Shown here: positions 4,347 to 17,752 of the stretch, in pieces | How positions within the stretch are numbered: position 1 is the first letter of the stretch | Layout: each line of letters opens with the position of its first letter | Assembly (NCBI GenBank): GCA_025350105.1 | Contig: JANXYJ010000022.1 | Location: 1 to 64,000 of the forward strand | Source of the DNA: Terriglobia bacterium | GTDB lineage: Bacteria; Acidobacteriota; Terriglobia; Bryobacterales; Bryobacteraceae | Reading direction: 5' to 3' | DNA: 64,000 nucleotides | The notes under the pieces: generated by a model | What the model was told of the DNA's origin: nothing | Database searches by the model: none | What the model saw: only the letters and a program-made list of their open reading frames with translations | Translations under genes and position numbers: made by a program

Positions 4347-7300
4347 ATGACTAGCAGGGGATTTCGTAACGCAATTCGCTCGATCGCTAACGGGGACAAC
4401 CTTACGAGGATGTATGCTTTGTCTTCACCCTTTTTCACATATCCTTCGCAAGTGGCGGATACACGCTTGCCGGATTGTCAGCCCTGCAGTCCTGCAGCAC
4501 TCTACGGCCGTACGCCCCCGCTGGTCATCACCGCGATGACAATCCTGGCCCTGATCGCCACCTTGTTTCTCTTTGGTGGATTGGCCTTTGGCCAATCCAC
4601 CTTCGCGTCGCTGGTGGGAACCGTGCACGATACTTCGGGCGCCATCTTGGCCAGTTGTGCGGTGAGTGTTGAAAACCAAGGAACGCGCGCACGCCGCAGC
4701 GTCATCAGCGACTCTACTGGATCGTACTCGATTCCCAACCTGGAACCGGGTGCTTACAAAGTAACCATGGAGGCGCCTGGGTTTCAGGTGGTGAATTTCA
4801 CCATCGAATTGACGGCCCGGCAAACCGCCCGTCTGGATGGACAGATGAGCGTTGCCTCGCAAACCGAGTCGGTGAACGTGACGGCGGAGGCCGCGCCGGT
4901 GATCAACACGGAAGTGTCGAATATCGCTGAGACCAAGACAGGGCGCGAACTCGTCGACCTGCCGATCGCAATTGGGTCGCGGGGCACGGGTTCCACCAGC
5001 CCGATGTCAACGCTGACCACGCAGCCGGGCGTACAAACCGACGCCGGCGGCGGCATCTCGGTAGCGGGCGCGAAACCGAGCATGCTTTCGATGAGCATCG
5101 ACGGCATCAGCAGCATGGGCCCACGGGCGGCGGGGCCCCTGACAGAACTCTTCCCGTCGTTCAACTCCATTGCCGAAATCAGGGTAAGCGAAGTAAACAA
5201 CAGTGCGGAGTTCGGCGGCATCAGCGATATCACGACAATTTCCAAGAGCGGCACCAACAGCTTTGACGGCGGCGCCTTTGAAAATCTGCAAGATACAGCG
5301 CTGAATGCCCGCAATCCGTTTAACGCCGTAAAGCCAGTACTCAAAATGAACAATTACGGAGCTTACGTCGGTGGCTGTGTCTGTCACCGCGCCGTCGCCC
5401 GGGGGATCTCCCACTCCTACAGGTACCGCTTTGATTGGCGGTATTCAACAGCCCGAAATCGACTTCGGGCTGACCGTGGCGCACAACTACATTTTTACGC
5501 CGCGGCTGGTGAATGAAGTTCGCACGGGCTTCAACGGCGTGCACCAGGCCACAACCTTCGGGATCTCACCCGCGCAAATCGCCAGCCAAGTGGGATTGGT
5601 GAACCTGCCGCCGTACCCGGATGGTAACGCGGTACCGAATTTCAACATCGCAGGATTTCAGCAGACCGGTGGAACCGGCTCGTCGATCGCGCGCAACAAC
5701 ACGTTTCAACTTCTGGACAATCTGACCTGGACCAAGGGCGCACATTCGGTGAAATTTGGCGGTGACTTCCGCTACCTGACGGGCTATTATTCCAACGTGT
5801 TTTCCAGTTCACGTTTGGGACAGTACACCTATAACGGGTCGTTCACCAGCTCCGTCATCAACGGAAATCCTTACATTGGTAATCCCTTTGCGGCGTTCTT
5901 ACTGGGGGTGCCTGACAAGACCCAGCTGGCAAGCGTGATCCAGCCCAATGCCGAAGCCTACGCGAGGCATTACGCCACCTATGTACAGGACGATTGGAAG
6001 GTAACCTTGCACCTTACCATTAACTATGGGTTGCGTTGGGAATACCATCCCATGTTTCAGGATCACCTGCTGAACGTGACCAATTTTCTACCTGATTTCA
6101 CGTCAACAGTGAACGGCCAGGTGGTGAAAGGAGTCGCGGTCATTCCCAATCAGGATTCCTTCAAAATTCTGAATCCTTTGTTTGCGGCTTCCATTGCGCC
6201 AACGCCGATCTTAACCGCGGCACAGGCGGGCATTCCGGAGAGCTTGCGCAATTCGGTGAAAAACGACTTTGCTCCGCGCATCGGAATCGCTTGGCGCGTG
6301 AACAACAAGACGGTGATTCGTGGTGGTTACAGGCGGTTTATCGAGGCGCCTTTGGGTTCGCTGATCAGCGCTGCTTGGGGCGTCCACACCAGCTACCTGG
6401 CCATCTTTAATAATGGTTTATCGGGCGGGAAGCCTGCTCTCAACTTCCCCTATCCGTTCCCCTCGAATTTGGCCCAACCCGGCGTGCAGGACTTCGAACA
6501 GGCCGGCGACGTCAATTATAAAGACCCTTGGGTTCATCAATGGAATTTCACCTTTGAGCGTGACCTAGGGTTTGGTACGGCGTTGCGCGTTTCCTACGAT
6601 GGCAACCACGGCAGCCAACTTGGCGTGCAGGAAAATCTGGATCAGGTCCAACCCAACACGGTAGGCTACAACGTGGCCAAGTTGAGCGCTCCGTTCCCCT
6701 TGTGGGCCAAGGTTGGCTCCGAAAATAACGGTGGATGGAGCAATTACCATGCGGCCACCGTTTCGCTGGCGAAGCGCTTCTCCAAGGGCATGCAGTACCA
6801 AGGCAGTTATACTTTTGCGCGGAATCTGTCCAGTGGTCAAAGCTGGAATCCGACCAGTTTCGCCACGGAAGCGGGCGGGTTGGTGACGAACCGTTTCGAC
6901 ATTGGGCTGGACTACGGCAACGTCGCATTCACCCGGCGCCAACGCTTCCTTTCCACCTTCCTCTATCAGCTCCCCTTTGGACGGACCGTATTGAAGGGGA
7001 ACAAGATGCTGAACCAAGCCATCGGCGGCTGGGATTTGGCTGGAGTTGTGCTGTTCCAAACCGGCCCATTCTTAACGGCTACGGTTCCAGGTGCGGATCC
7101 GTCCGGTACTGGATTCCCCACTCTGATTGGGAATGGACGGCCGGATACGGTTGCCGGCGTATCGCTGGTGCCTGCCACCCAGACCATCGCCAATTGGGTG
7201 AACAAAGCCGCCTTTGCCGTACCGGCAAACAATATCGGCCGGTTCGGTTACGCACCTGTGGGCAACATGATTGGGCCGGGAACACAAGCGATTTCGTTGT

Positions 7301-7500
7301 CCCTAATGAAGTCGATTTCCTTCACGGAAAACATGAAGGTTCAGTTCGGCGCGCAGGCAGCGAATCTGTTCAATCATGCCAACTACGCCACGCCGAATAC
7401 CACTTTCAACACAGCCAGTTTCGGCACGATCTCCAACGTACAATCGGCGGAAGGAGCGGGCCCACGACAGATACAACTTACCGCGCGTTTCACGTTCTAA
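4347..7500 (+). pseudogene. TonB-dependent receptor (Oar-like) split by frameshift and probable internal deletion
   Basis: The start is set by an AGGAGC ribosome site 6 bp before the ATG at 4347. The first frame has a long N-terminal leader with a hydrophobic export segment (ITAMTILALIATLFLFGG), a carboxypeptidase-regulatory domain (SLVGTVHDTSGAILASCAV; SYSIPNLEPGAYKV) and the start of the plug (KSGTNSFDGGAF ... MNNYGAYVGG). At about 5371-5385 this frame becomes nonsense and ends at 5516. The barrel continues in another frame (IGGIQQPEIDFGLTVAHNYIF to the terminal LTARFTF at 7500). The plug segment normally following YVGG seems to be missing, so I infer a deletion of roughly 100-150 codons plus a frame change. 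An assembly error is the alternative. It heads the acetamidase-qhpA block. Confidence 0.8.
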
Positions 7501-7564: not shown

Positions 7565-8581
7565 ATGACCATCACGCATTGGCTGGTCTGTGGTTTCGCA
7601 GCAACCTCGCTGCTTGGCGCAGACTATAAACTCAAGGCTACCCCCGAGACACTCGCGTGGGGATATTATTGGGCGGGCGCCAAGCCTGCCCTTACGGTTA
7701 GATCCGGCGACGTCGTGGAGATTCAAACCGTCTCCGGCAACCCGGCGAACTTGGAAACCGCAGGTGTCGCAGCGGATCAAATCCAGCCCGAACTGCGCAA
7801 GATTCACACCGATGTTCCCCGCGAAACCCGCGGTCCCGGTGGCCACCTGCTGACCGGGCCAGTGGCGATTGAAGGAGCGCGGCCAGGCGATGTGCTGGAA
7901 GTGCGCATCCGTGAAATTCGCCTGGATGTGCCGTACGCTTACAATACGGCAGGCAGAGCCGGTTTTCTGGCTGACCTGTTTCCTCCCAACAAGACTAAGA
8001 TCATTTCGCTGGACCGCGAGAAGAACATCGGCCACTTTGCGCCAGGTATCGATCTTCCGCTGAAGCCCTTCTTCGGCAGCATGGGCGTGGCGCCTCCCGT
8101 AGCGATGGGCAAAATCAACAGTGGCCCTCCGGGAATCTTCGCGGGCAATCTGGACAATAGAGAACTGGTGGCGGGCACAACGCTGTTCATCCCTGTGCAC
8201 GCCATGGGTGCTCTATTTGAGGTCGGCGACGGACACGCCGGACAAGGCAATGGCGAAGTGAACATCACCGCGATGGAAACTTCCTTGACCGGTGTATTCC
8301 AGTTCATCGTGCATCACGATATGCATTTGGATTGGCCCCGCGCGGAGACGCCGACACACTACATCACCATGGGTCTGGACCCGGACCTGACCCAAGCGAC
8401 GCGCATTTGCATTCTGCAGACCATCGATTTTCTATCCAGCACAATGAACCTCAGCCGCGAAGACGCTTATGCGCTAATCAGCGTGGCCATCGACTTGAGC
8501 ATCACCCAGTTGGTGGATGGCACCAAAGGTGTGCACGCGATGATCCCGAAGACTTTGTTAACCGGTGTGAAAGCGCCATGA
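7565..8581 (+). CDS. Exported acetamidase/formamidase family protein
   Basis: 338 residues with a short signal-like N-terminus (HWLVCGFAATSLLGADY). It then matches the FmdA/AmdA family along its full length: an early WGYYWAGAKPALTVRSGDVVEI segment, the GAFEVGDGHA-like segment seen here as GALFEVGDGHAGQG, and the acidic/His-rich metal region. Cytosolic family members hydrolyse formamide or acetamide to ammonia and the acid; an exported version is common in acidobacteria but its substrate is not established. The ATG at 7565 has an AGGAG site 5-6 bp upstream. Its stop overlaps the qhpA start by 4 bp (ATGA), implying translational coupling with amine dehydrogenase. Confidence 0.85.
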   Translation: MTITHWLVCGFAATSLLGADYKLKATPETLAWGYYWAGAKPALTVRSGDVVEIQTVSGNPANLETAGVAADQIQPELRKIHTDVPRETRGPGGHLLTGPVAIEGARPGDVLEVRIREIRLDVPYAYNTAGRAGFLADLFPPNKTKIISLDREKNIGHFAPGIDLPLKPFFGSMGVAPPVAMGKINSGPPGIFAGNLDNRELVAGTTLFIPVHAMGALFEVGDGHAGQGNGEVNITAMETSLTGVFQFIVHHDMHLDWPRAETPTHYITMGLDPDLTQATRICILQTIDFLSSTMNLSREDAYALISVAIDLSITQLVDGTKGVHAMIPKTLLTGVKAP

Positions 8582-10251
8582 GGATGAAGGCGTCTGCTAT
8601 TTTTGCCTGTGTGACTTTCGCCGCCGCATTGGGTTACGGCCAGGGTGCTGAGGAAGGCATTCCCGTAACCGACCCATTGGTGATCACCAAGTGCGCGAAG
8701 TGCCACGCGAGCGACGATCACGGCAACATGCAGCGGGTCTCCTGGCTGCGATACTCACCCGAGGGCTGGCAGGACGTGATCAAGCAGGCGATTGTGATCA
8801 ACGGGGCCACGCTGAACGCGGGAGAGGCACGCAGTGTGTTGAAGTATCTGGCCAGCTCTCATGGGTTGGCGCCGGAAGAGGCCCAGCCGTTTCTGTACTA
8901 CCCGGAACACCGGGTTCGCGATGAGAGCGATCTAGCGAACGAAACTCTGCGCAAGGCCTGTGCCCGGTGCCACGGAATGGCGCGCTCTTTTACATCGCGG
9001 CGATCCCTTGATGAATGGACGCGGCTTGAGGAAGTACACGTCAATCGCCATCAGGCCGATCGCAATGCAGAGGCGATTGCCGATCTTGCAAAAGCCGCAC
9101 CCCTGCATACGGCGGAATGGACCCGATGGAGCGCGCACCTGCCCCCGGCGAACCTGACAGGCCGCTGGTTGGTGACGGCGTCGGTAGCGGGCCGCGGCAA
9201 CTACTACGGTGAGATGGAAGTGCAAACCGCGGGAGCTGCAGGCGAATTCAGAACACGGGTAACGTTGCGTTCGGCGAAAGACGGTTCCCTGATCGTGCGT
9301 TCCGGTTTGGCGGTGGTTTACGCCGGATATGCCTGGCGCGGGCGATCGCAGGCGGTGGCTGGAAGTGCAACTGCAAATCTCGAACCCGACAGCTTGGAAA
9401 GTGTCGCCCGCGAAGTGCTGTCGTTCTCGCCGGATCAAACGCAAGCCGAAGGACGCTGGTTCTGGGGACAATATCAGGAGTTCGGCTTCGACGTGAAGTT
9501 GCAGCGAGCTTCCTTAGAAACCACGCTGATGGGCATCGAGGGAGCGGCACTTAAAACCGGTTCACAAGGCAACCGCGTTCGCGTTATGGGCGATCACTTC
9601 CTGACGCAAGTGGCCCCGGCTCAGTTGAAGCTGGGCGGTGGAGTCGTCGTTCGCAGCATCGTTTCTCAGACCGAAACAGAACTTGTCGCCGAGGTCGCCG
9701 TCGAAGCCGATGCCAGCCCCGGGAAAAGGGATCTGACACTGGGTGAGTCCGCCTTACGCGGCGCGATTACGGTCTATGATCGGGTAGATTACATCAAGGT
9801 AATTCCCGACACCACGCTTGCGTCTTTTGGTGATGACACAGGCGCACGAGCACAGCCCGGGGGCTATCAGCAGTTCGTGGCAGTTGGCTATCAGCGGGGC
9901 CCGGATGGGAAGCGGCACACCGATGACGATTTGGAACTTGGTCCGGTGGACGTGAACTGGACGCTAAGAATTTTCTATTCGGTAGAAGGGAGTCGTGCGG
10001 ATTTCGTCGGCAGCATCAATGCAACCGGCCTTTTTACGCCAGCATCGACCAGCCCCAAAACCAATTTCGACGTGTGGGCCATCGCCACGGCAAAGACGGA
10101 GAAAGACCAACAGAATAAGCCGCTGGTGGGCAAAGGGTATTTGGTGGTGACGGTTCCGTTTTACACCTTCAACGGCCGCCGTTACGTGCGCGACCAGGAA
10201 CACTGGGTGGACGATGGACCGGCGCAAATTACCGCAGACCAACCGAAGTAG
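8578..10251 (+). CDS. qhpA: Quinohemoprotein amine dehydrogenase alpha subunit (diheme)
   Basis: 557 residues. A signal peptide is followed by a diheme cytochrome c domain with CAKCH (Cys39/Cys42/His43) and CARCH (Cys128/Cys131/His132), then three beta-rich domains as in known QHNDH alpha subunits. A terminal segment FTPASTSPKTNFDVWAIATA ends in the late strand YLVVTVPFY. The alpha subunit takes electrons from the cysteine tryptophylquinone of the gamma subunit and passes them to a periplasmic acceptor. It is separated from qhpB/C/D, which lie on the other strand 1.7-6 kb downstream. A C-terminal relic of a second alpha gene remains next to qhpD, so this copy is the only intact one here. The start overlaps the acetamidase stop; an ATG at 8584 is possible. 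Confidence 0.9.
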   Translation: MRMKASAIFACVTFAAALGYGQGAEEGIPVTDPLVITKCAKCHASDDHGNMQRVSWLRYSPEGWQDVIKQAIVINGATLNAGEARSVLKYLASSHGLAPEEAQPFLYYPEHRVRDESDLANETLRKACARCHGMARSFTSRRSLDEWTRLEEVHVNRHQADRNAEAIADLAKAAPLHTAEWTRWSAHLPPANLTGRWLVTASVAGRGNYYGEMEVQTAGAAGEFRTRVTLRSAKDGSLIVRSGLAVVYAGYAWRGRSQAVAGSATANLEPDSLESVAREVLSFSPDQTQAEGRWFWGQYQEFGFDVKLQRASLETTLMGIEGAALKTGSQGNRVRVMGDHFLTQVAPAQLKLGGGVVVRSIVSQTETELVAEVAVEADASPGKRDLTLGESALRGAITVYDRVDYIKVIPDTTLASFGDDTGARAQPGGYQQFVAVGYQRGPDGKRHTDDDLELGPVDVNWTLRIFYSVEGSRADFVGSINATGLFTPASTSPKTNFDVWAIATAKTEKDQQNKPLVGKGYLVVTVPFYTFNGRRYVRDQEHWVDDGPAQITADQPK

Positions 10252-10263
10252 GGGGAATTTCGC

Positions 10264-10644
10264 ATGCGAACTATCTTTTTTAGCGGGCTGGCGTTTGCGG
10301 CCCTGCTGGTCATGCCCGGCCTGGCGCATCATGGGTGGGCTGCGTTCGAGGGTGAGAAAACAATCACCCTGAAAGGCACTGTAACCGACTTCCATTTCGT
10401 CAATCCCCATTCGGTCATCGAGTTCGACGTGACGGATGAAAAGGGCAATATCCAGGCGTGGGAAGGGGAGTTGACCAGCCCGATGCACCTGATCCCCAAG
10501 GGATGGAGCAAAGTCTCGCTGGACGCCGGTGACGTGGTAGCCATCACCGGCTATCCCGCCAAAAACGGATCGCATGTCTTGCGGATCAGGAAAGTGCTTT
10601 TGGCCAACGGCAAGGAACTTCCCATGGGCACGGTTAACCACTAA
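10264..10644 (+). CDS. DUF6152-family exported protein
   Basis: 126 residues with a signal peptide (FFSGLAFAALLVMPGLA). The conserved AHHGWAAF segment follows, as does the pattern of this small beta-barrel-like family (KGTVTDFHFVNPHSVIEF; WEGELTSPMHLIPKGW). The function of the family is not known. It follows qhpA by 12 bp after a GGGGGA ribosome site, so it belongs to the forward amine block. The stop at 10642-10644 overlaps the end of the convergent reverse gene. Confidence 0.8.
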   Translation: MRTIFFSGLAFAALLVMPGLAHHGWAAFEGEKTITLKGTVTDFHFVNPHSVIEFDVTDEKGNIQAWEGELTSPMHLIPKGWSKVSLDAGDVVAITGYPAKNGSHVLRIRKVLLANGKELPMGTVNH

Positions 10645-11860
10645 AGTGAGCGCGGAATTTCCAGGTAAACTTTCAGGATGAACTCGCTGGATCTGGTAGG
10701 AACCGTTCCCGAATTGTAGGGCTGTGCCGTCTTGTTATAGGGAAAATGGTAGGGAAATGCGCGAATACCACCGTAGATGTAACCCACCAGCGTTCGCGTT
10801 CCGTTCAAGACGTTCAGATCAAGGATGTCGGTGCCGGGTAGCGCCCGCGCTAGTTCAGGCAGAGGGACAAATACGGCACCTGAACCAACCCAGTGGCTGA
10901 CGCTCGATCGTAGAGCAACAGCGCCGGGCAACTGTAGGAATTCATTTTCTGCTCGAAATTGGTGTCGATGGTCGGATGCGATCCTGGAAATAAGTAAATT
11001 GGCCGGCTAAAATTGAGCTGCGTCTCCGGCGTAAAGACGCCACCGTAGGCGGCCAAGCCGAGCCCCTTGGGCGAAAGCGTCTGAGTGGCAGTGAAATCGC
11101 GGCGATGAAACTCCGTCGGGTCCTCGTCTTTCTCCACCAGCGAAACATTCAGTTGGCCCGGTGAATCATCCGTGATCTTCAGCTTGCGAATTTCCTGCAA
11201 ATAGTTTTGCGCCGCAACGGGTGCGTTGCGTTCGCGTTGGCCTTCGAACGCCGAATAGCTTCCTTCAAAAGCATGCCCCATAATCAGGTAAAAGTATCCG
11301 TCGTGGAGTTTGATCAGCGCCCCGCCGGAGGCTTTTGCAAGCGGCGTTTCGGTGTAAGCGATGCCTTTCGCCGGAAGCCGGCCGCGCATCACCGCGTCAA
11401 TCAAACTCGGAAGATCTACCCGTGACAGCAAAGGAAAAGTAGTCCAGTTGCCCGCGTGATTTTGCCCATAGCCGCCGCTTATGTAAAGCTTTGGGCCATC
11501 CTGGACATAGAGCTGGGCCGTTGCGCTCCATTGATCTTTCACGGCGCTGAATGATGCGGGCAAGGTATCGAGTGGAACGTGGTAGGTCCGCGCGGGATGG
11601 ACGGTAGTATCCATTACCCAGACGTCGCGATTGGCGTCGAGACGGGAGAAGTCGGCGGAGCTCCCGCCTACACCGTGATAACCCGCGATGCGTCCGCCGA
11701 TGAACACCCAGCGACCTTTCCATTGGGCAAACGAAAAGGATTGAATTCTGGGCGCACCAGGATATTCCCCGCTGACGTCTTCCGTGGCAGTCACACGAAA
11801 AGGCAGATTCCCGGGCGGCAGGGTGGCGCCAAGGAAGAAAGCTACTAACGGCAGGATCAT
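10641..11860 (-). pseudogene. Secreted kelch-like beta-propeller protein disrupted by frameshift/deletion
   Basis: From the ATG at 11860 the frame encodes a signal peptide (MILPLVAFFLGATLPPG) and kelch-like propeller blades (WKGRWVFIGGRIAGYHG; KLYISGGYGQNHAGN; GYFYLIMGHAFEGSYSAFEG), ending at 10850. The C-terminal part is in another frame from about 10915 to 10641 (VGSGAVFVPLPELARALPGTDILDL ... GTRTLVGYIYGGIRAFPYHF ... SSEFILKVYLEIP, in pieces). The conserved segment expected between LLYDRAS and VGSGAVF, including a further GGIS-type blade, appears to be missing. So a deletion with frameshift near 10900-10920 is likely. It lies 103 bp downstream of qhpB on the same strand. Function unknown. 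Confidence 0.65.
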
Positions 11861-11963
11861 GGGCAATTTTGCGGGTGAAACCAGCGTGGCGGGCAAGCGA
11901 CGGTCAGCAATTCACGCGAAGGAAGTGCGCCACAACTCACACTTCCCGCGCGCAGAACGCACC

Positions 11964-13100
11964 CTATTTTGCGGCCAGGGTAACCAAGTTGGTGGTGGTG
12001 TCTTTGTTCAGATAGATCACTTTCTTCGATTGGAGTGTCGCTGCGTCGAAGATTTCCAGGGTCGATCCCGCGCCGTACATGTACAGCCGCTTGCCGTCCC
12101 CGCCCACGCTGAAGCGGAAGGTGGGGCGTGTATCGAACTCCTTCTTGTTGATCACCTTGTGGTTTTCAACATCCCATACCCACCATTCGGTAAGACGGTT
12201 CGCACCGATGCCGATTTTGGGCATCACCGAGTAACCGCGCTTGTGGTCCGGCGAGAGTTGGAAATTAGTCATGGGAAGCAGCGGCCCGATGGGAAAATAT
12301 TCCATCTTGCGGGTATTCAGATCGATGGTGGCCATGCCCAACGTGCCCTTGTGCACGATGGGGTCGACGGTTGTGAAAACGGAAGTGACCGTGTCTGGGC
12401 TATCCATCGAATCGTCGTTAGCAGCTAAGCGATAGGGCGTGGCGCCCGGGTAGGGCGGTTGCGCTAGATCAATTTTGTCCACCTGCGTGAACGTCGCCAG
12501 GTCGAAGATCAGGATGTCGTCCTGAAAAACATACAGCAACTTGCCGTCGGGCGACACTTTGTAGGTGGCGTTGAAGCCAAAGCCCTGGTCCATTTCTTTG
12601 GGGAAATTCCAGGTCTTAGCGATCTTCTTGTCTTTCACATCGATGGCGATGAACTTCGGCGGCTCGATGCGGTATTGATCGATGTCCTTCACCGCCACTT
12701 TCATCGTGGTATAGATGTAGCGTCCCAGAGGATCTACGGCAAGCCCCGAGTAGCGGGCATTACCGCCCTGCAGCATGCGGTCAGGCGCTATAGCCTGGAT
12801 GCGCGGACGGCTGTTCTGATCGGAAAGATCGAAACTACTCGTCACCTTACGGGTTTCTAAATCCACACTTTCCAGCAGCATTCTGGTGGTGAATACAAAC
12901 AGTGTCTTGCGGTCCGCCGAAAGGGCGGTGGTGCGAGGAATGCCGTCCAGCGGAATCTCTCCCACCACTTCCTCTTTGTTCTCATCAAGGATCAGCAACT
13001 TCTTGTCGAGCGTCCCGATGTACATAAACTGCCCGGTTGGGGCTTGGCCAAAGGCCGCACAGTTGGCTAGCGCGAGTATGATAACGGCGAGTGTCTTCAT
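11964..13100 (-). CDS. qhpB: Quinohemoprotein amine dehydrogenase beta subunit
   Basis: 378 residues with a signal peptide (MKTLAVIILALANCAAFGQA), then a seven-bladed YVTN-like beta-propeller with repeating segments such as RTTALSADRKTLFVFT, YSGLAVDPLGRYIYT, YKVSPDGKLLYVFQDD and FRFSVGGDGKRLYMYGAG. In QHNDH the beta propeller holds the gamma subunit and forms part of the active-site wall. The start has an AAAGGAG site 6 bp upstream. It follows qhpC by 11 bp, matching the D-C-B order of described qhp operons. Confidence 0.88.
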   Translation of the reverse strand: MKTLAVIILALANCAAFGQAPTGQFMYIGTLDKKLLILDENKEEVVGEIPLDGIPRTTALSADRKTLFVFTTRMLLESVDLETRKVTSSFDLSDQNSRPRIQAIAPDRMLQGGNARYSGLAVDPLGRYIYTTMKVAVKDIDQYRIEPPKFIAIDVKDKKIAKTWNFPKEMDQGFGFNATYKVSPDGKLLYVFQDDILIFDLATFTQVDKIDLAQPPYPGATPYRLAANDDSMDSPDTVTSVFTTVDPIVHKGTLGMATIDLNTRKMEYFPIGPLLPMTNFQLSPDHKRGYSVMPKIGIGANRLTEWWVWDVENHKVINKKEFDTRPTFRFSVGGDGKRLYMYGAGSTLEIFDAATLQSKKVIYLNKDTTTNLVTLAAK

Positions 13101-13111
13101 GAAAATCTCCT

Positions 13112-13450
13112 TTACGGAAATACAATGTCGACTTTGCGCCAGTCATTGGCCGCGGAGGCGCACTTGTCGGTCCAATCCACCGCGTTGTTCAGGTGATCGG
13201 GAACCTGCGCTGGCCAGCCACAACCCAAATGGCAATCAAACAGATCTCGTTCCACGGGCTGACAAAGCCCGGCGGTCCCGCCGGACACATCCACTTCCCA
13301 GCCCGGAGTGAAGTTCAAAGTGCATCCCATCGGATAGTAGATCTTTCCCTCGCCGCCTCTGGCCTGGAGGGCTTGCACGTCACCAGTGGCGGCAATTACG
13401 CTCGCTTCCACACGGCGGGCTTTCCGGTTGATCGATTTCAAGGAATTCAT
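13112..13450 (-). CDS. qhpC: Quinohemoprotein amine dehydrogenase gamma subunit, CTQ precursor
   Basis: 112 residues. All cross-linking positions of the known gamma subunit (Pseudomonas putida numbering Cys7-Glu16, Cys27-Asp33, Cys41-Asp49 thioethers and Cys37-Trp43 quinone) are present with exact spacing: Cys43-Glu52, Cys63-Asp69, Cys77-Asp85 and Cys73-Trp79. So this peptide can carry cysteine tryptophylquinone, the amine-oxidising cofactor. The first ~36 residues (Arg/Lys-rich, no Sec signal) form a leader of the kind recognised by QhpD and removed after export. An AGGAG site precedes the ATG at 13450. It belongs to the radical-SAM-modified peptide class. Confidence 0.92.
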   Translation of the reverse strand: MNSLKSINRKARRVEASVIAATGDVQALQARGGEGKIYYPMGCTLNFTPGWEVDVSGGTAGLCQPVERDLFDCHLGCGWPAQVPDHLNNAVDWTDKCASAANDWRKVDIVFP

Positions 13451-13490
13451 CGCAATGGTCTCCTAGTCCTTTCTGTTTCTTCTTCGGTTA

Positions 13491-14942
13491 TCAAGCTCCA
13501 TCAAAGCGTTGCAAATACGCCGGATTCTTCACGGCAATATCGCCGTAAATCCGCAAACACAAATCGTTCCAGCCGCGAATCCAATCGCAATAGTGCAAAG
13601 TGGCGGCTGAAGTATCGCCGTAGTGAACAAAAGCTTCGTGGTAGCATCCGCCAGCGCAAACCGGCCGTGCCCAGCAGGTATGGCAGTCATAGCGAGCACC
13701 TAAATGATGCGTTTCCAGGAATTCATGCCGCGCCTCATGATCCACGCCGCCCTCCATCACGTGGCCCATCTTTCCAACCGGCGAATCCACAAAGCGATGA
13801 CAAAGACTAACGTCGCCCGCCGTGCCTACACCCAACAAACCAAGCCCCGCGCCGCAGGGATAAGCTTTGCTCATCCCGGAATGCAACTCCTTCAGCGTGT
13901 CATTTGCGTTGGTGAAACCATGCTGGCGGCCAGTCACGGCATAGTCGCGATATTCCCATGCCAGATCCTCGAAGCCGCCCAGCACCGCGCTCATCTTTTG
14001 CGGACCGATGCTGTAGAGCCGCTCCGGATTGGCGGTAGCCGGAGAAAATCCGACCGCGTAGAATCCAACTTCCTGCGTCAGGTGTTCGTAGATTCGGCGG
14101 ACATGCGAAACCCCGGAACTAAGTGTGACGCGCGCGCCAATGGAATTGGTCTTGTGCCGTTCCAGCAGCATTTTGATCTTGGGGACGATCACTTCATAGC
14201 TGCCGCGCCCGTCGTGAAAAATGCGCATCTTGTCGTTCAGTTCTTTGTCGCCATCGATGCTGACGGTCACCCCCACCTGGTGCTCGGCAAGAAAATCAAC
14301 AATCGGTTCGCTTAAAAGCGTTGCGTTGGTGGTGAGACTGAACTCCACTTGCTTGCCCGCCAGGGCGCATCTTTCTTTCGCGTAATGCACCGTGGAGCGC
14401 AGCAGCGGAAAATTCAGCAGCGTCTCTCCTCCGAAAAATGTGACGTGAATCGACGGCCGGTCCGCCGATTCTTTGATGAGCAGATCAATGGAAGCCTCCG
14501 CAATAGCGTGATCCATGTATTTCGGCTTGCCGGCGGTCTGGCTGATTTTGTCGTCGCTATATTCGTAACAATAGCCGCACGCCAGGTTGCATTGATTGGT
14601 TACGTTCAAGACGATCCGTTGAAGCGGAAACGTTTTTTCCGGAACCGTGGGCATTTTCTGCTTTGCTGTGCCACGCATAATGACTTCGGATTGCTCCAGT
14701 TCAGCCAGCGCAACTTCGATCTCACGCGCAGAATGGCCGCGCGCCAGCAACATCTGCACTAATTCTTCTTTGTGCAAATCCCGGTCGGCCAGCCCATGCA
14801 GCACTTCCTTGCCGATTTTGTCTAAGGAGAAAATCGCTCCACTGGGTACCAGGTAAAGGAATTTTTCTCCCGATGCTTCAAAGGAATGCGCTTCACGAAG
14901 CCGATACGGTAATTCGACCGGCGTCATTACGGCAGTGCTCAT
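13491..14942 (-). CDS. qhpD: Radical SAM maturase forming thioether cross-links in QhpC
   Basis: 483 residues. The N-terminal ~90 residues form a peptide-binding (RRE-like) region. The radical SAM cluster motif is Cys118-Cys122-Cys125 (CNLACGYCYEY). A TFFGGETLLNF segment (SAM-binding GGE) follows, and a C-terminal SPASM-type Cys-rich region (CHTCWARPVCAGGC ... YCDW) binds auxiliary 4Fe-4S clusters. Described QhpD joins Cys sulfur to the side chains of Asp/Glu in QhpC. The gene precedes qhpC by 40 bp and its ATG overlaps the stop of the qhpA relic (ATGA), preserving the ancestral A-D-C-B order. Confidence 0.93.
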   Translation of the reverse strand: MSTAVMTPVELPYRLREAHSFEASGEKFLYLVPSGAIFSLDKIGKEVLHGLADRDLHKEELVQMLLARGHSAREIEVALAELEQSEVIMRGTAKQKMPTVPEKTFPLQRIVLNVTNQCNLACGYCYEYSDDKISQTAGKPKYMDHAIAEASIDLLIKESADRPSIHVTFFGGETLLNFPLLRSTVHYAKERCALAGKQVEFSLTTNATLLSEPIVDFLAEHQVGVTVSIDGDKELNDKMRIFHDGRGSYEVIVPKIKMLLERHKTNSIGARVTLSSGVSHVRRIYEHLTQEVGFYAVGFSPATANPERLYSIGPQKMSAVLGGFEDLAWEYRDYAVTGRQHGFTNANDTLKELHSGMSKAYPCGAGLGLLGVGTAGDVSLCHRFVDSPVGKMGHVMEGGVDHEARHEFLETHHLGARYDCHTCWARPVCAGGCYHEAFVHYGDTSAATLHYCDWIRGWNDLCLRIYGDIAVKNPAYLQRFDGA

Positions 14943-15145
14943 TGGTCCACCTCCGGTTGGTCGTAGCGCACGTAAACAGGAATCGTTACCACCAAATAGC
15001 TGCGCGCCCTGAGTGGCCGTCCTCCTGGAGAATTGAAGGTCGCCGCCACCCAGATGTCGCCCCAGTTGTTGGTGGGATAGTTGTTAGCCTGCTTTTGACG
15101 CGCAGGATTGGGGCCCTCCTCACTGGGAGTGAAGAGCCCTGAATA
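14939..15145 (-). pseudogene. qhpA: C-terminal relic of a second qhpA
   Basis: About 68 codons ending at 14939 resemble the extreme C-terminus of QHNDH alpha: SGLFTPSEEGPNP, then NNWGDIWVAATFNSPGG, RARSYLVVTIPVYVRY and DQPEV. The intact QhpA has the same order (TGLFTPASTSPKT ... FDVWAIATA ... KGYLVVTVPFY). Upstream of about 15145 the frame no longer looks like QhpA and is occupied by the opposite-strand qhpF start at 15155. The stop overlaps the qhpD ATG by 4 bp, so this was the original first gene of the A-D-C-B operon. The promoter now driving qhpD is not obvious and must lie within or beyond the qhpF 5' region. Confidence 0.75.
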
Positions 15146-15154
15146 TCTGATCTC

Positions 15155-16915
15155 ATGCAACCCGATCACCACAACCCGGGCTCCATCGCCAACTGGAACG
15201 ATTATCGGCGGCTGTGGGTATTCGTGCGTCCGTACACGGCCAAACTCACGGTAGTGGTTGGGGTAAGTTTGGCCGCCACCATCTTGGGATTGATTCAACC
15301 CTACATATCCAAAATTCTGATTGATCGTGCTTTATTGCGCGGCGACATGAGCGTATTGCTGTGGATGGCGGGCATGATGTTCGCGGCCACGGTCTTAGGC
15401 TTCGTGTTCAACATCGTTTCCAGTTACCGTTACGTGCGCGTTTCCGCCGCCATGCTTTTCGATATGCGCCTGGCATTGTTTGAGCATTTGCAGAAACTGT
15501 CGCCGCGTTTTTACGCCCGGTTCCGGCTAGGCGATTTGATGTCGCGCCTGAATACCGACATGGGCGAGGTGCAGCGCATCTCCGCCGATACGCTGCTCTC
15601 CATCGTCAGCAATACCATCTTCTTTTTCGGCAGCGTAGGCGTGATGATTTGGTTGAACTGGCGTTTGTTTATCGTAAGCATTGTGTTCGTGCCCTTCTGC
15701 TTCTGGATCTTTTGGCACTATCAGCAGCGGCTTACCGCCTTGACCAAAGTTCTGCGCGAGCGGGGCGCCGACCTGGGAAGCCTATTCGTAGAAAGCATTC
15801 TGGGCATGCGCGTGGTGATCTCCCTGCGCGCGCATCAGTTTGAAGCAGAACGCTTTCGCGAACGCAACGATGCGTTTGTGGCAACCATGCTGAAGGCGCA
15901 GGTGGCATCGTTCTTAACGGGTGCGTTGCCGGGAACGCTGCTCACCGCAGCCACCAGCGCAGTGTTCCTTTACGGCGGCTGGCTGATCTTTCAACACCAA
16001 ATGACCATTGGAACATTGGTGGCGTTTATGGCTTATCACGCACGCTTGTTATCTCCCCTGCAGAATCTGATGACCCTGAGTTCCGGGTTGGCCTCGGCCC
16101 GGGTATCGTTGGGCCGCATCTTTGAACTGTTTGACACCACACCAGATGTGGTGGAGGCGGAGAACCCTGTGCCGTTGCCTCCGGTTGGGCAAAGCATCCG
16201 GCTGGAAAACGTCTTCTTCAGTCACGACCGCTCGACCATATTGAATGACGTCACGCTGGAGATTCCGGCGGGCAGTCTGTGTGTGGTGCTGGGACCGAGC
16301 GAAGTGGGCAAGTCGACGTTAGCCGATTTACTCGTACGTTATCAGGATCCCGATCCGGGGCGGGTTTTGATGGACGGGCTGGATTTGCGCGACGTGTCGC
16401 TGCATGACCTGCGCTCGCAGGTGATGTTAGTAGATCAGGCGCCGTATTTGTTCAACGTCACCATTGCGGAAAATATCGCGTACGCAGATCCGAGCGCCAC
16501 CGCCATCGACATTGAGGGCGCGGGAACTCTTGCAGGTTTAGACGAACTGATTATGCGTTTGCCGGAAGGATATGCCACAAAAACAGGCGAACGGGGGCTG
16601 GCGCTTTCCGCCGGTGAGCGGCAGAGAATCGCATTGGCTCGCGCGTTCCTTCGCAAGCCTAGCGTGCTGATTTTGGACGAGCCAACGTCCGCGCTGGATG
16701 TATTGACGGAACGGTTGGTGACGGCGAATTTGCGCGAGCTCCTGATCGCGCGAGAATCGTCGCGGGAAACAAGAAAGATGACCATCATCGCCATTACACA
16801 TCGTCCTGCACTGGCCGATGCCGCGGACCTAGTGGTCACCCTCGAGGGAGGTCAAGTAAGAGTCACTGCAGGCGTATTGAAGATCGAAGCCGGGAGCGTG
16901 AGCCCGCGAACGTGA
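15155..16915 (+). CDS. qhpF: ABC exporter of the amine dehydrogenase gamma subunit
   Basis: 586 residues: a six-helix exporter membrane domain (residues ~20-310) fused to an ATPase domain. Walker A is GPSEVGKST, the Q-loop VDQAPYLFN, the signature LSAGERQRIALARA, Walker B VLILDEPTSALD and the H-loop AITHRP. Such transporters in qhp clusters (QhpF) are thought to carry cross-linked QhpC through the inner membrane. It is divergent from the qhpD block and followed after 6 bp by qhpE. General ABC exporters are similar, so the assignment rests on context. Confidence 0.85.
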   Translation: MQPDHHNPGSIANWNDYRRLWVFVRPYTAKLTVVVGVSLAATILGLIQPYISKILIDRALLRGDMSVLLWMAGMMFAATVLGFVFNIVSSYRYVRVSAAMLFDMRLALFEHLQKLSPRFYARFRLGDLMSRLNTDMGEVQRISADTLLSIVSNTIFFFGSVGVMIWLNWRLFIVSIVFVPFCFWIFWHYQQRLTALTKVLRERGADLGSLFVESILGMRVVISLRAHQFEAERFRERNDAFVATMLKAQVASFLTGALPGTLLTAATSAVFLYGGWLIFQHQMTIGTLVAFMAYHARLLSPLQNLMTLSSGLASARVSLGRIFELFDTTPDVVEAENPVPLPPVGQSIRLENVFFSHDRSTILNDVTLEIPAGSLCVVLGPSEVGKSTLADLLVRYQDPDPGRVLMDGLDLRDVSLHDLRSQVMLVDQAPYLFNVTIAENIAYADPSATAIDIEGAGTLAGLDELIMRLPEGYATKTGERGLALSAGERQRIALARAFLRKPSVLILDEPTSALDVLTERLVTANLRELLIARESSRETRKMTIIAITHRPALADAADLVVTLEGGQVRVTAGVLKIEAGSVSPRT

Positions 16916-16921
16916 GCACCA

Positions 16922-17752
16922 ATGGACGAGAAAGCCAGCAGCAATATGCGATCCAAGACCAGTGGCACGCCTGAAGCAGCGGTGGAAATTGTTCAGCGGT
17001 TCGCCAAGCGAACCGGCAAGGGTATACGCATCGCCGTGATCGATAGCGGCGTGAATATGAATCACCCGCATATCATCGTCAAGCCCGTGGCGGGAGCGTC
17101 GGTCGGTGCTGGCGGTGAGTTCAATGCAGCGGACTTTACTGACCATCTGGGTCACGGCACCGCGGTGATGGCCGCGATTCAGGAAAAAGCACCGGAGGCC
17201 GAGTACATCGCTATCAAACTATTTGACGCTTCGCTGAGAACCCGCACAGAATATTTGCTCTCCGCGATCGACTGGGCGTTACAGAAGGGCGTTCACCTGA
17301 TCAATCTCAGTCTGGGGACGGTGCGCCTGGACTTCGCCGATGCCTTCAACACAATTGTTCGAGACGCCGCGGCGAAAGGAACCATTCTGCTGGCTGCCCG
17401 GGAAGCCCTTGGCCGCGAAGGCAATGCCACCCCATGCTTGCCTGGGTGCCTTCCAGGCGTGCTGGGCGTAGGACTGGATTGGGATTGTCCGCGCCATCGC
17501 TATCGCGTAAAACAATCGGGAAGCAGTGTGTTCTTTTGCGCGTCCGGCTACCCGCGTCCCCTGCCGGGCCGCCCGGCGGAAAAGAACCTGAACGGAATCA
17601 GTTTCGCGGTGGCCAACATTACCGGATTTGCCGCGCGCGCCTGTGAGGCTGCGGCCGCCGAACAGAACCCAATTGCAGGGTTGACGGACTTACAAGCGCT
17701 TCTCCTGCAATCGCGGGAGCACGAAGTGTTTTCAGAAATAGAGCAGCAATGA
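16922..17752 (+). CDS. qhpE: Subtilisin-like protease, leader peptidase for QhpC
   Basis: 276 residues without a signal peptide. The S8 triad is readable: Asp41 (IAVIDSGVN), His78 (DHLGHGTAV) and Ser227 (NLNGISFAVAN). The region CASGYPRPLPG before the Ser motif also fits QhpE. The described QhpE is a cytoplasmic protease that removes the QhpC leader after QhpD modification. It has no propeptide region like that of secreted subtilisins. Its position directly behind the exporter supports the role. Confidence 0.88.
   Translation: MDEKASSNMRSKTSGTPEAAVEIVQRFAKRTGKGIRIAVIDSGVNMNHPHIIVKPVAGASVGAGGEFNAADFTDHLGHGTAVMAAIQEKAPEAEYIAIKLFDASLRTRTEYLLSAIDWALQKGVHLINLSLGTVRLDFADAFNTIVRDAAAKGTILLAAREALGREGNATPCLPGCLPGVLGVGLDWDCPRHRYRVKQSGSSVFFCASGYPRPLPGRPAEKNLNGISFAVANITGFAARACEAAAAEQNPIAGLTDLQALLLQSREHEVFSEIEQQ

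Follow-up and report, generated by a model that had tools for sequence, protein, structure and literature searches.

The window, that is the first 64,000 nucleotides of contig JANXYJ010000022.1 of a Terriglobia bacterium (assembly GCA_025350105.1; 4.74 Mb in 206 contigs, 96% complete), contains a quinohaemoprotein amine dehydrogenase (QHNDH) operon whose own alpha-subunit gene, qhpA, is reduced to a C-terminal stub, and near it a full-length alpha gene of a separate paralogous clade, here called the orphan alpha. We consider it slightly better than even (probability about 0.52) that two histories lie side by side here, that of the orphan paralogue and an independent, recent loss of the operonic alpha. 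Intact qhpB, qhpC and qhpD genes occupy the minus strand; qhpF begins 12 bases past the stub on the plus strand and is followed by qhpE, and the orphan alpha stands on the plus strand between an acetamidase-family gene and a DUF6152 gene (Table 1). A preliminary description of this DNA had read the layout in the same way, with a truncated alpha overlapping qhpD and the sole full-length qhpA in an acetamidase–DUF6152 block, and gene calls, stub homology and a search of the assembly for other full-length alphas all agree with it. QhpD and QhpC exceed their curated cut-offs; QhpB and QhpE are under theirs, with the expected family scoring best in both cases.

Passages of PMC7876137 describe the arrangement of qhp genes as variable in order and strand, and assign the maturation steps: QhpD crosslinks QhpC, QhpG hydroxylates the QhpC tryptophan, QhpE removes the leader and QhpF exports. 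They also carry the suggestion that the haems of the alpha subunit join in the last oxidation to cysteine tryptophylquinone (CTQ). Portions of PMC5023235 give the order qhpRADCBFE and report that deletion of qhpA in Methyloversatilis brought enzyme activity down to background.

The stub is a truncated relic of the operonic qhpA present in the assembly, and not a chance similarity. It matches PF09100, domain IV of alpha, at 2.1e-12 (positions 75–132 of the 133 in the profile) and TIGR03908 at 7e-11 (positions 452–510 of 510; 41.3 bits against a cut-off of 274.35), and aligns with the C-terminus of the alpha of G169 at 72% over 73 residues (G and L numbers denote the genomes of relatives and fetched loci, respectively; G000 is the genome of the window). 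With 67 homologous residues and no haem motif, it fails as a full-length, haem-bearing alpha. In alignments with relatives clear homology begins at 15142, possibly at 15151; hence the preliminary description, which had placed the stub at 14939–15145 and had taken the gene to have lost its 5′ part as far as the qhpF start, was right to a few bases. Farther upstream the open frame of the stub is merely the antisense of qhpF. Used as query against the whole assembly, the G169 alpha matched the stub, the orphan alpha and, by chance, one further place (E 0.19); no other piece of the lost alpha appeared. The end of the stub overlaps the qhpD start (ATGA), so that qhpD starts inside the final codons of the stub, and a GGAGG stretch lies in the stub seven bases ahead of that start; because this stretch is retained, qhpD may still be translatable. 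A promoter scan of 14800–15500 found 0 candidates, with 0.7 expected by chance.

A search with the window's qhpD against 257 genomes of the order Bryobacterales identified nine relatives of the same qhpD lineage, termed type II (G139, G189, G169, G170, G012, G141, G058, G014 and G177), and alpha lies directly upstream of qhpD in all nine. Seven of these alphas are full-length, that of G170 runs to the contig end near the alpha start, and that of G141 is cut by the contig start. The intact A-D-C-B order that had been sought in related genomes is therefore found, and the idea that relatives always lack alpha at this place is rejected. A domain-IV search of the same 257 genomes gave 89 matches in 62 genomes, namely 76 of operonic type (at least 112 bits), 12 low-scoring ones of the orphan clade (72–86 bits) and the stub. 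Short open frames (111–280 residues) were seen for five of the 76, all five at contig ends, and among the 77 operonic-type matches counted with the stub, the window's alone is shortened inside a contig. We also scanned GTDB contigs separately (30 loci, with L126 set aside as only a 24% relative), and 22 of the 29 qhpD loci have a full-length alpha match upstream. The alpha of L097, which is the same contig as G170, reaches the contig end; those of L098 and L116 are clearly cut by a contig end; in L118, L121 and L122 a contig end cuts qhpD itself; and L120 is the one locus without an alpha match although its contig continues.

The stub shares 63–79% identity with the alphas of eight type II relatives, which share 61–85% among themselves. 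It is thus as conserved as the same part of the relatives' genes and without noticeable decay, and the break should therefore be either recent or an assembly error. Similarly, in a tree of concatenated D-C-B proteins the end branch of the window is 0.18, within the 0.11–0.27 of the eight relatives, and so there is no sign of relaxed selection on D-C-B. Both comparisons used eight of the nine type II relatives, G177 being omitted because its qhpD is split between two stretches. A quick first tree had put the stub on a long branch; its row there held non-homologous residues, and the later comparison was made on the 67 homologous columns.

The full-length alpha has a different ancestry. In the alpha tree the orphan alphas form a clade of 12 rows (support 100/100) nested among the type I operonic alphas, and the type II operonic alphas form their own clade of eight rows (100/100). 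When the window's intact alpha was forced to group with the type II alphas, the log-likelihood fell by 155 and the approximately unbiased (AU) test gave p-AU 0.000123. Relocation of the original qhpA is rejected by the tree and this test, and the earlier proposal of a rebuilt operon with a moved qhpA falls with it, the more so as all 11 other genomes with an orphan also have an alpha of operonic type (that of G011 runs off the start of its contig). Alignment, tree and column counts used 63 of 66 rows, the stub and the contig-cut L013 and L072 being omitted. The tree holds 51 of the 76 operonic-type alphas, those with sequences in the fetched stretches; the other 25 are operonic-type by score alone, and L013 and L072, which are among them, were placed in the quick first tree.

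The company kept by the orphan alphas differs from that of an operonic alpha as well. qhpD is present in each of the 12 genomes that carry an orphan alpha, and no orphan alpha without qhpD was found among the 257 genomes of the order; in five of the 12 (the window, G170, G177, G180 and G014) the orphan lies within about 10 kb of the qhp operon on one contig. Directly downstream, where an operonic alpha would have qhpD (or qhpC or qhpB), the orphan alpha has DUF6152, in every one of the 11 loci whose contig extends that far, among them the window's. DUF6152 itself gives no functional clue, because G000 has 34 copies of it, with differing neighbours in the seven loci inspected, and we found no open-licence literature on the domain. 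The acetamidase gene, whose coupling to the alpha had been taken to suggest a separate substrate programme, matches nothing in the 11 remaining orphan loci, of which nine extend more than 4 kb upstream; the linkage was observed in the window only, and no inherited programme is seen. Across 396 genomes of the phylum, matches to an orphan domain-IV model outside the order end by position 130 of 147, before the orphan tail, so the clade appears restricted to the window's order. Beside another orphan alpha, that of G012 (L059), stands the kelch-like gene that goes with type II clusters.

The changes in the orphan alphas are concentrated in domain IV. We aligned 51 operonic with 12 orphan alphas. 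Of the 85 columns with at least 95% identity among the operonic sequences, 11 are lost in the orphans: 10 of the 29 that lie in domain IV and one of the 56 before it (Fisher p 5e-5, a value that ignores relatedness). Three of the 10 lie in the C-terminal tail, and therefore the other seven carry the main argument. As controls, type II alphas compared with type I alphas lose 7 of 103 columns, scattered along the protein, the sister clade of the orphans loses 0 of 86, and a divergent type I clade loses 1 of 104. The GPN loop of domain IV (GPNPxR), which is present in the solved structures 1jmx and 1jju, occurs in 49 of 51 operonic alphas and in none of the 12 orphans, the window's copy included, and a G.RYVRD-like tail occurs in all 12 orphans and in none of the 51 operonic alphas. 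Eleven orphans keep both haem motifs, and the remaining one, that of G011, is truncated by the end of its contig. The window's orphan alpha aligns with 1jmx_A and 1jju_A over 34–526 and 36–526 of its 557 residues, and shares with them the two CxxCH motifs of haem c and the four Pfam alpha domains (I–IV), all above their cut-offs; it differs in the missing loop, an altered acidic motif, the extra tail and the DUF6152 gene, in place of D-C-B, directly 3′ of it. These changes suggest that domain IV of the orphans no longer serves its putative role in docking beta and gamma. A C-terminal QPEV motif was also considered as a docking signal; it may in part mirror the ribosome-binding site of qhpD encoded there.

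On the reading that we prefer, some Bryobacterales carry a QHNDH alpha paralogue paired with DUF6152 that, in the 257 genomes of the order, occurs only alongside a qhp operon. The orphan alpha would be an exported dihaem cytochrome c that no longer docks to beta and gamma through domain IV, and may share some related redox task in the periplasm with the DUF6152 protein. Independently and recently, the type II operon of this genome (A-D-C-B plus kelch, F and E) would have lost its own alpha except for roughly the last eighth, from 67 codons before the alpha end to the qhpF start, the change running presumably from an intact to a shortened gene. qhpD keeps its start codon and a stretch resembling a ribosome-binding site inside the stub, and the haem-bearing body of alpha is gone together with the upstream region, probably including the promoter. 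With no more than 67 residues of alpha left and no haem motif among them, the operon should by itself be unable to yield the usual enzyme, and that alpha-beta-gamma enzyme is probably no longer made.

Several observations weigh against this reading. None of the reading frames of D, C, B, F and E is interrupted, and D-C-B is not faster-evolving; a working system would explain this as well as a very recent loss or an error of assembly would. Moreover, the type II alphas lack the seven type I invariants mentioned above, so a distinct clade may lose invariants while keeping its partners. The state of QhpG is equivocal. The best match in G000 to the QhpG-like protein of G169 has E 0.03, with none at 1e-10, and the protein is present in seven of the nine type II relatives; its absence is thus a weak further sign of a lost enzyme. 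It was dropped as proof of inactivity, since G189, with an intact operon, also lacks a QhpG-like protein at 1e-10. The best NF049967 match in G000 scores 82.8 bits against a cut-off of 240, and this family is a poor detector here, as seven of 14 control genomes reach 1e-10 with it and even the QhpG-like gene of G191 scores no more than 68 bits. Genomes with qhpD and no QhpG-like protein at 1e-10 are G000, G189, G078, G012 (only 83% complete), G051, G084 and G096, where NF049967 gives 80–104 bits. qhpG stands just ahead of qhpF, in the order G-F-E, in L069, L070, L104, L109 and L123, and we conjecture that the present arrangement could stem from one deletion that began within alpha, took in a qhpG and ended at the qhpF start.

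Alternatively, alpha may be intact in the organism, and the contig may have lost the stretch between the alpha tail and qhpF, with part of a TonB-dependent receptor gene, in assembly or by collapse of strain variants. We regard such an artefact as possible though doubtful. The undecayed stub, the fragmentation of the genome into 206 contigs and the singular shortening of this alpha away from a contig end are all as an artefact would leave them. Moreover, a second break lies 10 kb away, in the TonB-dependent receptor, where about 130 residues are missing and the frame changes near 5380, and a contig with two breaks is more likely to be misassembled; the breaks fit decay of a cluster for amine uptake and oxidation equally, because such receptors adjoin alpha in many relatives. 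However, the junction lies inside the contig, with no exact repeat of at least 12 bases within the window at either break, and the missing part of alpha is found nowhere else in the assembly. qhpF is complete to its start codon, and GC content and GC content at third codon positions are even across the junction.

It is unlikely that QhpB and QhpC now have the orphan alpha as their partner and that the relic has thereby become dispensable. In favour of such a swap, no other full-length alpha was found in the genome, qhpB is 1.7 kb away from the orphan, and neither a haem motif nor any of the four alpha domains is missing from it. Orphans also occur only in genomes with qhpD, and D-C-B is intact and not accelerated. 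Nevertheless, the coexistence of orphan and operonic alphas in all 11 other genomes implies that the orphans probably have another role, the clade and the window's copy with it have lost invariants of domain IV, the GPN loop among them, and an old takeover would not have left so well preserved a stub. Replacement of the operonic alpha by the orphan, as the preliminary description had it, is thus possible but unsupported; of that interpretation the truncated qhpA at the head of D-C-B and the A-D-C-B order in relatives stand, and the move, the takeover and the substrate programme find no support. Equally improbable is that the orphan alpha and DUF6152 form a new qhp-dependent dihaem module (an alternative alpha, or a cytochrome acting on gamma in CTQ formation), with the orphan here as sole alpha and the dehydrogenase built with a subunit of another lineage.

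Compared with the QHNDH operon qhpABCDEFGR of Paracoccus and Pseudomonas, the window shares the D, C, B, E and F components, with TIGR03906, NF037958 and TIGR03908 recognised. It differs in having no full-length operonic alpha, no QhpG-like gene found, a beta subunit under the NCBI cut-off and an extra kelch-like gene. Compared with the type II operons, its D-C-B genes are orthologous and its stub is orthologous to the alpha C-termini; those nine keep alpha at the operon head, two of them running into a contig end, and the window keeps only the stub. The kelch-like gene accompanies type II clusters in seven of nine loci, the other two being short contigs. Gene order also varies elsewhere, with A-C-B-D in G180 (L039) and qhpD divergent from A-C-B in G040 (L073). 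At L120 (9944–16052, Blastocatellia AA13) the genes after qhpD are one of 357 aa with no Pfam match, one of the peptidase-U32 family, qhpF and qhpE. Genes for alpha, beta and gamma were not recognised at this locus, which is possibly a QhpD system with another substrate.

Table 1. Features of the qhp region and its neighbours in the window
Feature	Positions	Strand	Basis
TonB-dependent receptor, broken	4536–7500	+	PF25183 positions 1–49, then 195–838
amdA, acetamidase/formamidase family	7565–8581	+	PF03069 3e-30; overlaps orphan alpha start
Orphan alpha, full-length QhpA paralogue	8578–10251 (start 8578; coding to 10248)	+	TIGR03908 394.9 bits, cut-off 274.35; tree; motifs
Orphan alpha haem motifs	8692–8706, 8959–8973	+	CAKCH, CARCH
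Orphan alpha G.RYVRD tail	within 10162–10194	+	motif
DUF6152 gene	10264–10644	+	PF19649 7.9e-24
Kelch-like protein gene	10850–11896	-	weak Kelch_3 match only, E 0.057
qhpB, beta-propeller subunit	11964–13100	-	TIGR03907 63.8 bits, best family, below cut-off 223.2; 54–76% identity to eight type II relatives
qhpC, gamma subunit precursor	13112–13450	-	NF037958 119.2 bits, cut-off 50; 66–87% identity to eight type II relatives
qhpD, radical SAM/SPASM thioether maturase, type II lineage	13491–14942	-	TIGR03906 573.2 bits, cut-off 453; 63–76% identity to nine relatives
Operonic qhpA stub, last 67 codons and stop	14939–15142 (codons 14942–15142)	-	PF09100, TIGR03908, G169 alignment
Junction, alpha stub / qhpF start codon	15143–15154	.	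sequence; stub and qhpF N-termini aligned with relatives
qhpF, ABC exporter	15155–16915	+	ABC_membrane and ABC_tran; N-terminus complete against relatives
qhpE, subtilisin-like leader protease	16922–17752	+	NF049966 158.8 bits, best family, below cut-off 165

The pairing of orphan alpha with DUF6152 is the novel part of the finding. Among the matches listed for open-licence literature (titles and abstract openings) on QHNDH, QhpA/QhpD, QhpG, DUF6152 and acidobacterial amine dehydrogenases, we found no description of orphan alphas of this kind. As the orphan alpha passes the curated QhpA cut-off, automatic annotation would label it qhpA and could count the genome as that of an amine oxidiser. 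The orphan clade may offer a handle on the function of alpha domain IV, and on whether a QHNDH alpha can work without beta and gamma.

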